DNA of 31,056 nucleotides, taken from positions 1 through 31,056 of IMG/VR virus record IMGVR_UViG_3300036770_002506; one strand, written 5' to 3'. The position numbers were made by a program, and so were the translations under genes. Shown here piece by piece: positions 9,269 through 29,506 of this stretch. The DNA comes from a virus. The notes under the pieces are model-generated. The model was given only the letters and a program-made list of their open reading frames with translations, ran no database searches and had not been told where the DNA came from. Position 1 is the first letter of the stretch. Each line of letters begins with the position of its first letter.

Positions 9269-9793
9269 TTAATAATTTAAGAATGCCCAATCGTAACGAA
9301 GTGTTACTTCAATCATCATTACGTCTTCTGAACCCCAATCTAAACTTCCGAAGTTTGATTCGGTAATGAAAGCACCTTTTAATATCCATTCTTCTACCTT
9401 TTCACCTAAAGGCGATAATTGAGTTAATGTTATTTCTTTTTTATACATTGAAGAATATCCATTACGTCCGGTAGCAGATTCGTGGTGTAAGCGTACCCAA
9501 TCCATTACTGCTTGTGTTCCAGATGGGATGATTGGATCATAAAGACTGATACCAATACTATTCCACTCGGATTTTCCTTTTACGTAACGTTTAACATTCA
9601 TATGATCTAATGCTACTTCATTGTTATTGATAGTAGGTTTCGCAGATGTTTTTACTAAATATGCAGGAATTCCTTCAATTTCCATGATAAAATGGTTTGA
9701 ACGTTTTGGCTCCCACGAATATGCATTTTGCCAATAATTATTATCAATTCCGTAATCTTCGAAGTTCGGATTTAATTTGTCTTTTAAGGCCAT
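9269..9793 (-). CDS. Tail tube protein (gp19-like)
   Basis: A 174-residue protein of the T4 gp19 type (T4 gp19 is 163 residues). Key segments are SNHFIMEIEGIPAYLVKTSA near the N-terminus, the central ISLYDPI and the C-terminal EVTLRYDWAFLNY, characteristic of the family. It stacks as hexameric rings to form the inner tube through which DNA passes. AAAGGAAACAGAGAT precedes the ATG, and the 14-base motif is 15 bases upstream. It is followed by an intrinsic terminator, so it can be transcribed as a single gene, as expected for a high-copy protein. It lies directly after the sheath gene, as in T4. Confidence 0.93.
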   Translation of the reverse strand: MALKDKLNPNFEDYGIDNNYWQNAYSWEPKRSNHFIMEIEGIPAYLVKTSAKPTINNNEVALDHMNVKRYVKGKSEWNSIGISLYDPIIPSGTQAVMDWVRLHHESATGRNGYSSMYKKEITLTQLSPLGEKVEEWILKGAFITESNFGSLDWGSEDVMMIEVTLRYDWAFLNY

Positions 9794-12348: not shown

Positions 12349-12367
12349 TATTATACTCCTTAATGAT

Positions 12368-23958: not shown

Positions 23959-23970
23959 CAAAACAGTAAA

Positions 23971-23996
23971 AAAGGGATGACCGGAGCCATCCCTTT
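23971..23996 (-). terminator. Intrinsic terminator after major capsid
   Basis: Nine-pair perfect stem AAAGGGATG / CATCCCTTT with an eight-base loop, then TTT and ACTG. It separates capsid transcription from the next gene. Confidence 0.88.
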
Positions 23997-24022
23997 CTTT
24001 TAATTAGTTAAATGGTTAACTA

Positions 24023-25669
24023 TTAAAGAGTTTCTAAACCTCTTACATATACTTTACCATAGAACTCTGGACGAACTACTTTCTTCGCGTAACGTGTCAT
24101 AACACCTTTACGTGGAGTGAAGTTAACTGGATCGTATACCAATGGAGTCATGATAAGTGGAACGTATGGGCTAAATACTGCACCTGTTTCAAGGAATTGA
24201 CTTCCTCTGAATCCCATAAGGATTACGTTTTCTTTCATGTATGGGTTTTTGTAAACAGTGTATCTGTTATTGATTGCACCAATTTTTTGTACGCCTGCTG
24301 CAAATTCCATTTTGTTACCATCTGTATCAGCAGCAAATCCTGGGATAGATTCAAGGATAGTTGCAACTGCTGGAGAAGTTACAAGGAAGTTAGCACCACC
24401 ACGTAATGTTTTTTGGTGAATTTTATTTGATACTTTTTGAAGTTTAGTACCTAAAGTTTGGAACCATCCACCTTGAGTGTTATAGAATCCACCGTTAGTT
24501 ACAGTTTGAGCTGTAAAGTTAGATCCGTTCCAAATTTCGTTATTAATTGCTGACCAATACTCAGTTGTTGGAGCTGATGCAATCAACATATCAAGAATTT
24601 CTAAATCGATTTCCATTGATACATACTCAGACAACATTGAAGTCAATTCAGCTTCAGCATCAATTGAGTGGTAAGCGTTAAGGTCTTGAGCAAATTCAGG
24701 TGTCCAAACTGCTTTCAACTTACGTGTTTTAGCAACGATTGGCTCTGATTGAAGCTCTAAGTTAACTTCTGGGATATCAATATCAGTACCTTGGTTGATT
24801 CCAGATGTTCCTGATCCTCTAAATGGATTAGCATCTTCAAAATCACCTCTAGTGATATCTGTAGGTTGTTTGCTATATGTTACAGTATATCCTGCTGTAC
24901 CGCTTAATCCTAATGCACCTGATACAAAGAATTCAATTTGACCTGTAGCGGCATTGAATTTGTTAAATGCAGGAACAACATTTGCTGCAGAATAATTAGA
25001 ACCAGAAGCAATAGTAAATGATCTAACTGCTAATAAATCTGGATTAACTAATGAAGATGTATTTACATAGATAACTGAATATCCTGCTAATCCGTTAGTA
25101 TAAGCTGAATCAAAGTTAACTGATCCTGAACCTGCAGAAACAGCTGATGCAGTTGTTGCAGAAACTACAGATGATGTTTCGTTAATTGAATAACCGAAAC
25201 GACCTGCACCGTAAAGACCTCCTGATGGATCACCAGTTGTAGTAGTAACACCGAACATTGAGTCATCAGCATTTGGAGAACCAAATGGATCACCTGTTCT
25301 GTTTAAGTTGTCAGAATCAAATCCTGGTTGAGCTGTACCGTATTTGAAATCAAGATAGAAAATAAGTCCTGATGGCAAATTCATTGGTTGAACTGAAACG
25401 AATTCTTTAGCTGCAAATTCAGCAAAGATTCTTCTTACCAATGGAAGTGCAACACCAGCCCACTCTTCAGATCCTTCTGCAGTACCTGTAGCTGACGCTT
25501 CTTTTACTAATTGACGTGCTTGGTTTTCAAGCAATTGAGCCATTCCGGCTTTTTCTGTCTCATTTCTAAGACCTTCTAATAGTCCCGTTTTTTCCCATTT
25601 AGTAACCAAACCTTTAGCGGCTGATCTCTGAGATGCATCTGGACTTTGTAATAATGAATTTAAACTCAT
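24023..25669 (-). CDS. Major capsid protein (gp23-like)
   Basis: A 548-residue protein (T4 gp23 is 521). Identifying segments are SEEWAGVALPLVRRIFAEFA, then AAKEFVSVQPMNLPSGLIFY, near residues 67-105, and the end VRPEFYGKVYVRGLETL. It forms the HK97-fold hexamers of the head. The N-terminal 57 residues are probably removed by the prohead protease; VKE57-Ala58 is a candidate cleavage site related to the T4 (Leu/Ile)-x-Glu rule, but this is a guess. AAAGGAG stands eight bases before the ATG, the best site in the window, and a strong terminator follows. High expression is expected. Confidence 0.96.
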   Translation of the reverse strand: MSLNSLLQSPDASQRSAAKGLVTKWEKTGLLEGLRNETEKAGMAQLLENQARQLVKEASATGTAEGSEEWAGVALPLVRRIFAEFAAKEFVSVQPMNLPSGLIFYLDFKYGTAQPGFDSDNLNRTGDPFGSPNADDSMFGVTTTTGDPSGGLYGAGRFGYSINETSSVVSATTASAVSAGSGSVNFDSAYTNGLAGYSVIYVNTSSLVNPDLLAVRSFTIASGSNYSAANVVPAFNKFNAATGQIEFFVSGALGLSGTAGYTVTYSKQPTDITRGDFEDANPFRGSGTSGINQGTDIDIPEVNLELQSEPIVAKTRKLKAVWTPEFAQDLNAYHSIDAEAELTSMLSEYVSMEIDLEILDMLIASAPTTEYWSAINNEIWNGSNFTAQTVTNGGFYNTQGGWFQTLGTKLQKVSNKIHQKTLRGGANFLVTSPAVATILESIPGFAADTDGNKMEFAAGVQKIGAINNRYTVYKNPYMKENVILMGFRGSQFLETGAVFSPYVPLIMTPLVYDPVNFTPRKGVMTRYAKKVVRPEFYGKVYVRGLETL

Positions 25670-25702
25670 CGTTTTATCTCCTTTGTTTTGTTTTTTAAAA
25701 AA

Positions 25703-26671
25703 TTAAATTAATCCTGCCAATTTTTTCCAACGGTTTGCATATTCAAAACCTTCGTTAAGAATTTGCGTTTTTGGCGCCGTTGATGCAACTGGTCTTGAAG
25801 CGTAAGATTTAGATTCTTTAACTACTTTTCTAGCTTTTGTTGGCTTATTAAAGCTTTCTGCTAATGTAGCAAATACTAATTTTGCTTCGCGAGTTGTTGC
25901 TGCTCTATCAAAGTTTTCAATAACTTTCATTTTTTGTGCTTCGTTAAGCTCAAAGTTACGGAATAACTTGTTAGTGTATAACAATTTAGCGTTAAGAAGA
26001 TTAACTTCGTTGATTACTGATTGAAGTTGTTTCACAGTACGATATGCTTCTTGAAGATCTTCTTCCATTTTTTTGTACTTGCCTTCTTCTACCGTTTCTT
26101 CATCTTCAGCAGGCGCACCCATATCTTCTTCTCCTTCTTCAGCAAGAATAGCTTCGATCAAAGAATCGATATCTTCATCTACTGTTTTTTCATACTTGCC
26201 ATAATCGCCTTCATCTACTGATGCTGGTTCAACATCTTCTAAATTTTCTTCAGAACCCATTGCCTCTAATTCAGCAATAATTGATTCTAAATTCAATTCG
26301 TCTTCTTCTTCGGCAGCATACTCGTCTTCTGCTGGCATTTCCGCTTCAGCTTCTGGTTCTCCACCAATCATACCTGTTAAGTCATATTCGCCGTCATTGT
26401 CGAAATCTAACCCGATGTTTACTGAATCTGGCATACCCATTCCCATATCATCTGCACCAGCTTCCATTTCGTCAGCTCCCATTGCCATATCCTCTGCACC
26501 AGCTTCCATTTCTTCTTCGCCTTCTAATTCGCTCATCAATTGAGTTTCTAGCATGCTTTTCATTTGAGGCATAAATGCTTCTTGTAACGCTAATTTTGCA
26601 TTAGCTAATGCAGTTTCTTTAACAGCTTTAGCATCTGCGATTGCTTGTTTTAGCAAATCTGATTTTGCCAT
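25703..26671 (-). CDS. Prohead core scaffold protein (gp22-like)
   Basis: A 322-residue, strongly acidic protein; residues 45-200 are mostly Glu, Asp, Ala, Gly and Met. It has a helical C-terminal domain, LNAKLLYTNKLFRNFELNEA onward, recognisable as T4-type prohead scaffold. It lies between the head protease and the capsid gene, as gp22 does. It would form the internal core that the capsid assembles on and would be degraded by the protease. Two features stand out: a tandem 14-residue repeat at 54-79 and a calcium-loop-like DFDNDGEYD at 89-97. AAGGAG precedes the ATG by seven bases. The 176-base gap before it holds a terminator, a possible promoter and a hairpin. Confidence 0.85.
   Translation of the reverse strand: MAKSDLLKQAIADAKAVKETALANAKLALQEAFMPQMKSMLETQLMSELEGEEEMEAGAEDMAMGADEMEAGADDMGMGMPDSVNIGLDFDNDGEYDLTGMIGGEPEAEAEMPAEDEYAAEEEDELNLESIIAELEAMGSEENLEDVEPASVDEGDYGKYEKTVDEDIDSLIEAILAEEGEEDMGAPAEDEETVEEGKYKKMEEDLQEAYRTVKQLQSVINEVNLLNAKLLYTNKLFRNFELNEAQKMKVIENFDRAATTREAKLVFATLAESFNKPTKARKVVKESKSYASRPVASTAPKTQILNEGFEYANRWKKLAGLI
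26436..26515 (-). repeat. Tandem 42-base repeat in scaffold gene
   Basis: Two copies (26436-26473 and 26478-26515, period 42) that differ at about five positions. They encode the 14-residue repeat E-M-E-A-G-A-(E/D)-D-M. Such repeats can expand or contract by slippage. Confidence 0.8.
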
Positions 26672-26701
26672 TGTTTTTCTCCTTAAATTTGTTTTTGGAA
26701 G

Positions 26702-26782: not shown

Positions 26783-26807
26783 GCATGTTTGAAAAAACAG
26801 TAAAAAA

Positions 26808-26829
26808 GTCCTAACTTTTTTGTTAGGAC
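26808..26829 (-). terminator. Intrinsic terminator after bS21
   Basis: Eight-pair stem GTCCTAAC / GTTAGGAC with a six-A loop, followed by TTTTTT and ACTG, 18 bases after the bS21 stop codon. Confidence 0.85.
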
Positions 26830-26847
26830 CTTTAAAATAATTTAAAT

Positions 26848-27099
26848 CTAGCTATTTTTTTGATGAAAATCTTTAATTTGTTGCAAATACTTAGCTGAAT
26901 TAAGTTGTTCTCTACGTTTAACACTAGGTTTTGTAAATGTTTTATTGTCTTTAAGTTTTTCTAACGTGCCTGTTGATTTAACTTTTCTTTTAAATGTTTT
27001 TAATGCATACGCTAAATCTTCTCTGCTTGTTCCTAAAACATTAACTCCTGTTGAGTGTCCTGGAATGATAGTTTTGTGATGTTTTTGTTTTTTATTCAT
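26848..27099 (-). CDS. rpsU: Phage-encoded ribosomal protein bS21 homologue
   Basis: An 83-residue basic protein. Residues 27-79 match bS21: ALKTFKRKVKSTGTLEKLK, then FTKPSVKRREQLNSAKYLQQ. From memory, Bacteroidota bS21 (KKFKR/YKRKF...TG...KPSVxRR...AAYIQ) aligns without gaps at an offset of 17. That puts Tyr71 at the position of the Flavobacterium Tyr54, known to help hold the 16S rRNA anti-Shine-Dalgarno. The 17 extra N-terminal residues (MNKKQKHHKTIIPGHST) are basic and phage-specific. bS21 binds the small subunit near the 3' end of 16S rRNA. The gene has no strong ribosome binding site, lies 10 bases after its neighbour, and is followed by a terminator. It probably modifies host translation. 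Confidence 0.85.
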   Translation of the reverse strand: MNKKQKHHKTIIPGHSTGVNVLGTSREDLAYALKTFKRKVKSTGTLEKLKDNKTFTKPSVKRREQLNSAKYLQQIKDFHQKNS

Positions 27100-27109
27100 A
27101 TATGTTAAA

Positions 27110-27574
27110 TTAAATTTTTCCTTGTGGTCTTTTTGCAGGTAATTGTGGCTGTTGATTAACTACATTAAATCTAAAATGTTTAAGTTCTGGTAATTGTGAA
27201 AAATATCCTTGAATCTTTTGTGCTTCAGTGCCCGGATCTTGTCCTAACCGAAAATAGAAATATCCCATTTTACCTGTTTTTGATTTCGTATGTTTAACTA
27301 TAGTAAAACCTTTTTTAGTAGTCCATTGCTTAATAGTCTCTGCTACTTGTTCAGCTTGAGACGGATCTCGAAGAATGTATTGAACGCCCCCTTGATAGTC
27401 AGTGATATTATTTACGAGTTGAGCTTCATCTAGTTCAGCCATATTAGTTTTAAATTTTTCTGAAGCAGCTGCTATTCGCTCCATATTTGTAGCAATTTGT
27501 TCAGAGTCCTCTGCACTCATTGCTTCTCGCAATCCAAACCATTCTCTATACATTTTTTTAAACTTACTCATCAT
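27110..27574 (-). CDS. 154-residue unknown protein in the head module
   Basis: The N-terminal 60 residues are helical (MSKFKKMYREWFGLREAMSA, then MERIAAASEKFKTNMAELDE). The second part (GGVQYILRDPSQAEQVAETI, then KMGYFYFRLGQD) could be a small alpha-beta domain. AAAGG precedes two adjacent ATGs, and the second (27571) has the better spacing. Located between the protease and bS21, it may be a prohead core protein like T4 gp67/gp68. No direct evidence supports that. Confidence 0.7.
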   Translation of the reverse strand: MMSKFKKMYREWFGLREAMSAEDSEQIATNMERIAAASEKFKTNMAELDEAQLVNNITDYQGGVQYILRDPSQAEQVAETIKQWTTKKGFTIVKHTKSKTGKMGYFYFRLGQDPGTEAQKIQGYFSQLPELKHFRFNVVNQQPQLPAKRPQGKI

Positions 27575-27605
27575 TGACCTTTATATTATATAAAAAATAT
27601 TACAA

Positions 27606-28013
27606 TTATCCAATATCATAATATTTTTTTAATCCTTCTGCAATATCTTCATATGCCTGTGCACATTTTCTTTCGTTAATAATAACTTCGGTTGCAGCTT
27701 TTTTAAATTCCTTTAAAGCTTCTGACATATATTTAAAATGACGTCCAGCAGCGGTTGCTTCTACAACATCGGATGATGCTTCATTAACGTGACGTTGAGC
27801 TGTTTCAACCATACGTTCTATTTTACTTACGGCTTCTTCTAATTGTCGTTTACTATATACTGATTCTCCTAATTGAGAAAATGTTCGTAATGATTCTACA
27901 AACGCACGTTTTTCTTCTGTTGTTAATGGAGCTGGTCCTTCTTGAAATACATTTTGCTTAGCAGAATCCATTTCATATAATAAACCTCGTAATGTTTCTA
28001 ATTTCTTTCCCAT
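27606..28013 (-). CDS. 135-residue helical protein in the head module
   Basis: A mainly alpha-helical protein starting MGKKLETLRGLLYEMDSAKQ. Residues 50-135 are rich in Glu, Ala and Lys and could form a helical bundle. I start at the ATG at 28013, one base after the protease stop, with AGGA eight bases before; the open frame continues upstream into the protease gene but without support. It is probably a prohead core or internal head protein by position; the family is unrecognised. Confidence 0.7.
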   Translation of the reverse strand: MGKKLETLRGLLYEMDSAKQNVFQEGPAPLTTEEKRAFVESLRTFSQLGESVYSKRQLEEAVSKIERMVETAQRHVNEASSDVVEATAAGRHFKYMSEALKEFKKAATEVIINERKCAQAYEDIAEGLKKYYDIG

Positions 28014-28014
28014 A

Positions 28015-28644
28015 TTATATCCTGCATTTACCATCTTCGCATAAAATCGAAGTAATGATTTCGTTTACTTTTGCGTATTTATTTATTTGTTTATTTTTAT
28101 TTACTGATTCATTCATCTGTGTAGGTCGCATAAAAGCGCCATGAGTTGATGGATTTGATACAAAGTCCCAACAAATTAATTCAAAATCTTCTTGAACTTC
28201 AACTACGCCTTCATTACGTAATTCTTTAACGGAGCCTAAACCTCTACTAGAAATACCTAATGTTATTCCAGCTTTAAAAAGACTCTTTAAAATATTACCC
28301 GACGGAGTATCTAGTATTTGAACTGCACCTTTAAGATCATCGCCATCCCACCAAATTTTTAAAACATTGTGAGATACATTGTTTAAGTTTACTACAGATG
28401 ATTCTGGATGATCTAATTCACCTAATGCTCTGTGTTGATCAATATATTCTCTTTGATATCGTTGACATTCTCGCATCAATATATTTTTAGGATATATTCT
28501 TCCGTTTTGATTTTTTGCGCCTGCTCTTTGTAAAACTCCTTGTACAACAAAACCACCAGGTATTCCATATGCAGCACCATTAGATTCATTTAATGAACCA
28601 ACAGGCTTAAATGGCATATATTCTACTATTAGTTGTTTTGACAT
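28015..28644 (-). CDS. Prohead core protease (gp21-like)
   Basis: A 209-residue serine protease of the T4 gp21 type (T4 gp21 is 212 residues). The likely catalytic His79 is in GELDHPESS and the nucleophile is in ISSRGLGS (Ser132 or Ser133). VVQGVLQRAGAKNQNGRIYP and FVSNPSTHGAFMRP are other family segments. It cleaves scaffold, capsid and internal proteins during maturation, clearing space for DNA. AGGAGAATAAT precedes the ATG, one base after the previous stop. The C-terminal CEDGKCRI has two Cys. Position between portal and capsid agrees with T4. Confidence 0.9.
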   Translation of the reverse strand: MSKQLIVEYMPFKPVGSLNESNGAAYGIPGGFVVQGVLQRAGAKNQNGRIYPKNILMRECQRYQREYIDQHRALGELDHPESSVVNLNNVSHNVLKIWWDGDDLKGAVQILDTPSGNILKSLFKAGITLGISSRGLGSVKELRNEGVVEVQEDFELICWDFVSNPSTHGAFMRPTQMNESVNKNKQINKYAKVNEIITSILCEDGKCRI

Positions 28645-28645
28645 A

Positions 28646-29506
28646 TTATTCTCCTAATGATCTAATTCGTTCTGATATTTTTATTAATCGTTCTGATATT
28701 TTATTCAATGCATTTTTAGATGACTCTTTCAAACCGCCATGTGCAATACCTGATTCGGTTTTTAATCTGCTTGTATATCTAATAGTTTCTTCAATCTCTT
28801 TAAGTTTTTTTGCAACTTCTTTTATTGATTCGTTTACACGCTGCTCCGGAGATTGTTTTGCATTGCCAAATGCAAATGAACGATAACCTTCGATAAGTTG
28901 TTCATATTTTCGATCCATTGCTTCCGTTAGCTTAGGAGTTTGACTTGGCGTATCTGTTAATGGTACCGATGGATATTTAGTTACTTTTTTATTTTGCCAA
29001 TCTGATTCATCTTCTGCAAAGGCAAACTTATCCATCCATTCCTCTTCTTGTGATTCAGGACGTTGATATTTTTCTGGCTGATATGATGGTGGAGTATTAA
29101 TAGATTCTACTACTTTATATCCCAATTGTTCTGCAGTATCTTTATCAGTAGTTTTCGCAAAAGCATTTTTTGTCATGTATGACCCTGCACCTGCTGATGT
29201 TGAAATTTCTTCTAATTCTTCATGATACCCCTTGTAATCACAATGTAAACAACCTTTTCCTTCACACTTAGTGCATTGTTTTATATTTTGATACTCAGGT
29301 TTCATTCCTGTATTTTTACAACGTTTGCATCCTGCTCCATGACATGAATCACATTCTGGTTGATCGTTATTCATAGCTTTTTTAATAGCTCGATCTTTTA
29401 CGCCCATATATTCTTGTTCTGGTTTTTCTTGGTTACCATCACCATCCCAATCTTTTTCATTTAGCGATTCGAAGCTTTCTTCTATTTGTTGAAGGAATGA
29501 TTTCAT
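28646..29506 (-). CDS. Head-module protein with DnaJ-type zinc motifs
   Basis: A 286-residue protein. Residues 52-63 and 78-89 hold two C-x2-C-x3-GC-x2-C units (Cys 52, 55, 60, 63 and 78, 81, 86, 89; CDSCHGAGCKRC and CTKCEGKGCLHC), each ending TG or KG. These are the zinc motifs of DnaJ's cysteine-rich domain, but no J-domain is seen. Residues 19-30 (DWDGDGNQEKPE) resemble an EF-hand calcium loop except at position eight. The C-terminal half is helical. The start overlaps the previous stop as ATGA. Its place between portal and protease, where T4 has gp67/gp68, suggests an internal prohead or chaperone role. No known phage family is recognised. Confidence 0.78.
   Translation of the reverse strand: MKSFLQQIEESFESLNEKDWDGDGNQEKPEQEYMGVKDRAIKKAMNNDQPECDSCHGAGCKRCKNTGMKPEYQNIKQCTKCEGKGCLHCDYKGYHEELEEISTSAGAGSYMTKNAFAKTTDKDTAEQLGYKVVESINTPPSYQPEKYQRPESQEEEWMDKFAFAEDESDWQNKKVTKYPSVPLTDTPSQTPKLTEAMDRKYEQLIEGYRSFAFGNAKQSPEQRVNESIKEVAKKLKEIEETIRYTSRLKTESGIAHGGLKESSKNALNKISERLIKISERIRSLGE

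Follow-up and report, generated by a model that had tools for sequence, protein, structure and literature searches.

In the ribosomes of Bacteroidia, the anti-Shine-Dalgarno (anti-SD) sequence is hidden in a pocket formed by bS21, bS18 and bS6 (PMC9976891), where an aromatic residue of bS21, Tyr54, stacks on A1534 and docks the 3' tail of 16S rRNA. In Flavobacterium johnsoniae, the Y54A substitution, C-terminal truncation or depletion of bS21 leads to more SD-led translation (McNutt et al. 2023, PMC9976891). Chen et al. 2022 (PMC9723584) described Bacteroidetes phages that carry a late-transcribed bS21 gene in the head region, with an aromatic residue at the Tyr54 position, and hypothesized that the phage protein replaces its host counterpart; the available part of that article contains no comparison of SD use among these phages. 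N-terminal extensions of the rpS21 proteins of huge phages were noted by Al-Shayeb et al. 2020 (PMC7162821), where the extension is not linked to SD, and a comparison of phage S21 with ribosome binding sites found no clear link (Watson et al. 2020, PMC7550191). Likewise a phage bS21, the protein of Pelagibacter phage HTVC008M enters Escherichia coli ribosomes (Mizuno et al. 2019, PMC6375957), although this phage and its host belong to lineages different from those considered here. The closest cultured relative of the virus analyzed here, Flavobacterium phage immuto, shares the head gene order and has a capsid protein that is 56% identical; unlike the virus described below, immuto, which infects Flavobacterium, lacks bS21 and avoids SD sequences, of which it has almost none.

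The stretch of DNA analyzed (hereafter, the window; 31 056 nucleotides) comes from a T4-like myovirus, as a linear IMG/VR fragment of 31 kb, and encodes a gp21 protease and a gp23 capsid protein (Table 1). The headline of the initial annotation, a Bacteroidota phage bS21 in the head gene cluster with an aromatic residue 54 and late expression, was already known because it is published in PMC9723584. By profile and structural comparison, the window ORF is a genuine bS21: the 83-aa protein matches both PF01165 (E=1.6e-10, 40.9 bits, cut-off 27) and TIGR00030 (E=1.3e-8, 34.6 bits, curated cut-off 28.95) above the curated cut-offs, and its top match in the PDB is F. johnsoniae bS21 (7jil, E=7.7e-9), with residues 27–78 aligned on 10–61. 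As initially proposed, this alignment is gapless from helix 1 onward, matches the KPSV/KRR motif and places Tyr71 on Tyr54 of Flavobacterium; the corresponding residue is aromatic (Y or F, residue identity alone being compared) in 70 of the 70 near relatives. AlphaFold2 predicts helices at residues 26–43, 45–51 and 58–82 (mean pLDDT 76.7), a helical core as in ribosome structures. The likeness to F. johnsoniae bS21 thus covers the core, KPSV and the aromatic residue 54; the extension, by contrast, is missing from the host protein, and a strong autoregulatory SD is present before the host gene but not before the phage gene.

Table 1. Features of the bS21 locus and of related genes in the window
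Feature	Position	Strand	Remark
bS21 gene, 83 aa	26848..27099	minus	passes cut-offs of PF01165 and TIGR00030; matches PDB 7jil
N-terminal region before helix 1, residues 1–25	27025..27099	minus	exceeds that of bacterial bS21 by ~16 residues
Tyr71 codon (F. johnsoniae Tyr54 position)	26887..26889	minus	Y/F in 70/70 near relatives
bS21 leader without Shine-Dalgarno	27100..27120	minus	SD in 0/70 and 0/66 group relatives
w27110, 154 aa, bS21 operon partner	27110..27574	minus	C-terminal beta-alpha-beta-beta-alpha-beta domain
Promoter TTGGAT-N17-TATAAT directly 5' of w27110	27585..27613	minus	75/77 group loci
Intrinsic terminator directly 3' of bS21	26804..26833	minus	hairpin and T tract, 66/66 relatives
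Prohead protease, gp21 type	28015..28644	minus	PF03420 5e-32
Shine-Dalgarno TTAGGAG of prohead protease	28651..28657	minus	
Putative prohead scaffold gene	25703..26671	minus	position and homologues
Shine-Dalgarno TTAAGGAG of scaffold gene	26679..26686	minus	kept in 4/4 long contigs
Major capsid protein, gp23 type	24023..25669	minus	PF07068 4e-76
Shine-Dalgarno AAAGGAG of major capsid gene	25678..25684	minus	107/113 extended-bS21 loci
Shine-Dalgarno TTAAGGAG of tail sheath gene	12356..12363	minus	kept in 4/4 long contigs

The gene lies in the head cluster, as had been stated, between the gp21 protease gene and the scaffold and gp23 genes. This arrangement is like that of clades a–e of Chen et al. 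2022 (PMC9723584), in which the neighbors of bS21 are terminase, portal, prohead protease and capsid genes, residue 54 is aromatic and Bacteroidetes hosts are predicted. In those clades, however, bS21 and the structural genes lie on opposite strands, whereas in the window they share a strand, with bS21 following w27110 in a unit of two genes. Given that this unit has its own promoter and terminator, bS21 does not merely belong to the capsid operon, and the expectation that it would be expressed together with the capsid genes is not supported. The scaffold and protease neighbors also bring to mind a non-translational role, in which this basic protein would be packaged in the head, a possibility raised in PMC9723584, or would bind scaffold or DNA; such a role appears highly improbable in view of the conserved bS21 core, KPSV motif and aromatic residue 54, and of the promoter and terminator that set bS21 apart from the scaffold gene. 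Along with this separate unit, a further new observation is that no SD precedes bS21 in any of the 66 members of the window group or in any of 27 other aromatic relatives; GAGAGGAGGTG is found before many host rpsU genes, and the strong extended SD of host rpsU autoregulation is absent from phage bS21 (0/70).

The promoters of the window group are TTGGAT-TATAAT and not of the Bacteroidota TAnnTTTG type; because promoter counts over whole contigs were uninformative, intergenic regions alone were used. A sigma factor as the cause of these promoters was considered and rejected, a region-4 match being found in one contig only. In G011, G012, G013 and G001 (L099–L126), many TTGGAT-N17-TATAAT promoters have TATAAT 5–6 nt 5' of ATG, a spacing that suggests leaderless or almost leaderless phage messages. 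Another motif, ATATTTATA, is strongly enriched upstream of window genes (for example, at 9793, 19628 and 22952) and looks like a T4-type late promoter; over the group, ATATTTAT occurs upstream of genes 56 times compared with 5 expected. The terminators after the capsid gene (23968–23999) and after bS21 (26804–26833) share the downstream tail TTTTTTACTGTTTT, and TTTTACTGTT is enriched in the group.

The operon partner w27110 is present in 64 of the 105 extended-bS21 loci and in none of the 66 loci without bS21. Its C-terminal domain is predicted by AlphaFold2 to be ferredoxin-like, and a Foldseek search places bS6 chains (called bS6 by position and length, from several bacteria, one of them F. 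johnsoniae) among the top matches (E ~2e-3), mixed with other ferredoxin-like folds. At the sequence level, no PF01250 (bS6) match was found in 14 phage records and the hhalign probability for w27110 against bS6 is 0.2%, one of the bS6 searches having used as its seed an E. coli bS6 sequence that may be approximate. With no sequence support, the identification of w27110 as a bS6 homologue was rejected, leaving a fold lead only.

The protein in the window does not share the short N-terminus of Bacteroidia-type bS21: 25 aa precede helix 1, compared with 8–9 aa (MLII..) in the latter. The extra basic N-terminus pointed out initially (MNKKQKHHKT...) is conserved in the family, near relatives having in common a segment M[NS][KR]KQKxH...PG...VNV before the bS21 core, and 7 of the 20 columns that are invariant in the alignment of these relatives fall within the first 21 residues. 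In the AlphaFold2 model of the isolated protein, the extension is predicted to be unstructured. Relatives of this bS21 are encoded on >300 IMG/VR stretches; when 85k bacterial genomes were scanned for the family patterns, no relative came to light, and a bacterial source of the extended form was rejected, there being none among 250 pattern hits in bacterial genomes. In an unrooted tree built from 53 columns, all extended bS21 form one clade (support 99/88), separate from the Bacteroidota hosts and from the short phage bS21. The initial assignment to the Bacteroidota type therefore stands with respect to the aromatic residue 54 and the gapless core but not with respect to the tree, in which the phage-only clade adjoins the Bacteroidota hosts instead of falling within them. 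What is new here is that, judging from these sequence comparisons, the window protein is a member of a bS21 clade confined to phages, an apparently old lineage marked by a conserved basic extension of ~16 residues at the N-terminus.

The possession of the extended bS21 can be compared with SD use in the same phages. In the window, an SD core is located 5–20 nt upstream of 19 of the 32 genes (control 6%), with the canonical spacing of 4–10 nt. Across 122 loci with an extended bS21 and the window's capsid family, an SD precedes 50.1% of 1806 genes (control 4.2%) and the capsid gene in 107 of 113 cases, compared with 11.3% of genes (control 8.0%) and 10 of 66 capsid genes in the 66 loci of the same capsid family without bS21; many of these loci are near copies, and gene starts come from a simple caller except for immuto and Mel-JY01, annotated starts giving the same contrast. 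The ten SD-led capsid genes among the bS21-less loci belong to a subset with GC ~0.38–0.43. The main exception to the association is L456–L482 (with L459 and L469), bS21-less capsid relatives with GC 0.38–0.43 and moderate SD use. In phage clades with a short bS21 (6–8 residues before helix 1), the SD fraction is 0–13%, at or near the control, compared with 37–67% in the extended clades; inside the extended clade, background SD levels are seen in L434 and L437, which have lost bS21, and in L422, where it is shortened.

The association of extended bS21 with SD-led phage genes in the window's capsid family, the second new observation, thus appears in genome comparisons but is essentially clade-level: the extension and SD use amount essentially to one event at the level of the clade plus a few losses. 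Because the two are largely of one shared origin, the locus counts are not independent, and an independent-pairs test on the capsid tree, with 3 supported pairs, 2 agreeing and 0 opposed, leaves significance out of reach. To this extent the comparisons support the earlier suggestion that the phage copy could alter the choice of messages read, in that SD on phage genes accompanies extended bS21 and is missing in the bS21-less relatives. On the view of Chen et al. 2022, the phage protein would be swapped late for host bS21, the anti-SD would stay docked, phage mRNA would be favored via N-terminal contacts and SD use would have another cause. The retained aromatic residue 54, the shared genome region and the late expression published for Bacteroidetes phages (PMC9723584) are consistent with this account, which nevertheless seems unlikely since it leaves unexplained why SD tracks extended bS21 and is missing in short-bS21 phages.

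In four contigs of 112–145 kb, with gene functions inferred from homologues in annotated relatives, the scaffold, capsid, sheath, tube, protease and neck genes as well as SSB and RecA are SD-led wherever found, whereas polA, terminase (TerL), portal, helicase, clamp loader and bS21 never are. This pattern seems to fit protein demand better than timing; a strict early/late split was rejected, structural and metabolic genes differing only weakly (p=0.036 for 4 pooled contigs).

A third new observation comes from surveying the Bacteroidota (L659–L678, L592–L606), where bS21 residue 54 may predict SD use within the phylum: bacteria with Arg54 ('KAIRR') are SD-using (30% versus 7%) and those with an aromatic residue 54 are SD-blind. 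The promoters of Arg54 Bacteroidota are TTG-TAnnTTTG. Some Bacteroidota genomes encode two or three bS21 paralogues (L570–L572 in G157, L569 in G142, L573 in G237). Among the extended-bS21 phages, both aromatic-54 and Arg/Lys54 kinds exist, and two of the latter, Mel-JY01 and G020, have Bacteroidota promoters in intergenic regions; the Arg/Lys54 phages probably infect Arg54 hosts, in which one would expect SD use. Mel-JY01 (L031, L129, L130; PP395634), with Microcystis as the recorded host, contains 7–8 TTG-N-TAnnTTTG promoters compared with 0.3 expected, and its actual host may have been a member of Bacteroidota growing in the same culture. For the window phage, the combination of an aromatic residue 54 with SD use would be a paradox if the host is an SD-blind member of Bacteroidia. 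Simple unlocking by loss of Tyr54, possible for Arg/Lys54 phages, is ruled out for the window group, in which the aromatic residue is kept.

The main alternative is that the host uses SD anyway, being a Bacteroidota relative outside Bacteroidia, of the Arg54 type, or a member of another SD-using lineage, and that the extension aids ribosome takeover in some other way. In its favor are the SD use and the promoters of Arg54 Bacteroidota, the latter recurring in the extended-bS21 phages Mel-JY01 and G020, and the TTGGAT-TATAAT promoters of the window group. The alternative remains on the doubtful side because residue 54 is aromatic, the SD-blind host state, in every window-group member checked, and most genes of the group are SD-less; the start contexts of SD-less window genes are most like those of immuto (0.88), with Bacteroidia (0.54) ahead of Arg54 hosts (0.14), differing GC being a confounder. 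Furthermore, the nearest bacterial bS21 found are those of Bacteroidia, the best 80 of 127 bacterial matches to the core pattern being all from SD-poor Bacteroidota, although this pattern, derived from the present phages together with Bacteroidia, favors Bacteroidia.

The preferred reading, to which a little less than an even chance is given, is that the phage bS21 takes the place of host bS21 and renders ribosomes SD-competent, favoring SD-led phage messages. The SD-less bS21 mRNA would be translated by unmodified, SD-ignoring host ribosomes; the product would displace host bS21 on the 30S platform, placing the extension beside the mRNA exit path; the anti-SD would become usable, and the SD-led messages in high demand (scaffold, capsid, sheath, tube, protease, SSB and RecA) would gain over the SD-less host messages. 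From the sequence features and the association, which are observed, we infer the incorporation, the release of the anti-SD and the host. Replacement of this kind is consistent with the tracking of extended bS21 by SD, including the lineages without SD in which bS21 is lost or shortened (L434, L437, L422), with the SD-less bS21 in its own promoter-terminator unit and with nearest bacterial matches among SD-poor Bacteroidota, the aromatic-54 state being SD-blind. Several observations argue against it: the conserved aromatic residue should favor anti-SD docking, not release, and so needs explaining, for example, by the extension or by w27110; the bS21-less clade L456–L482 has moderate SD use; SD marks RecA and SSB too, and thus not strictly late genes, with polA, TerL and portal SD-less as well; and the window-group promoters are not of the Bacteroidota TAnnTTTG type. 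The more specific proposal that an SD-blind Bacteroidia ribosome is converted to SD use via the extended bS21, perhaps with the operon partner of bS6-like fold, the converter itself being made from an SD-less message, is advanced tentatively, as a possibility short of a probability.

Here, one form of phage bS21 is connected with SD use, a concrete and testable feature of the phage messages, in the setting of a bacterial branch known for SD-ignoring ribosomes. The comparisons suggest that extended phage bS21 may retune the host ribosome. If true, this would mean that a virus changes the way in which start codons are found by the host ribosome, the outcome being a virus-made specialized ribosome with an initiation code of its own. 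Even if the host proves to be SD-using, the residue-54 rule and the phage-only clade of extended bS21 would help to predict hosts and translation modes.
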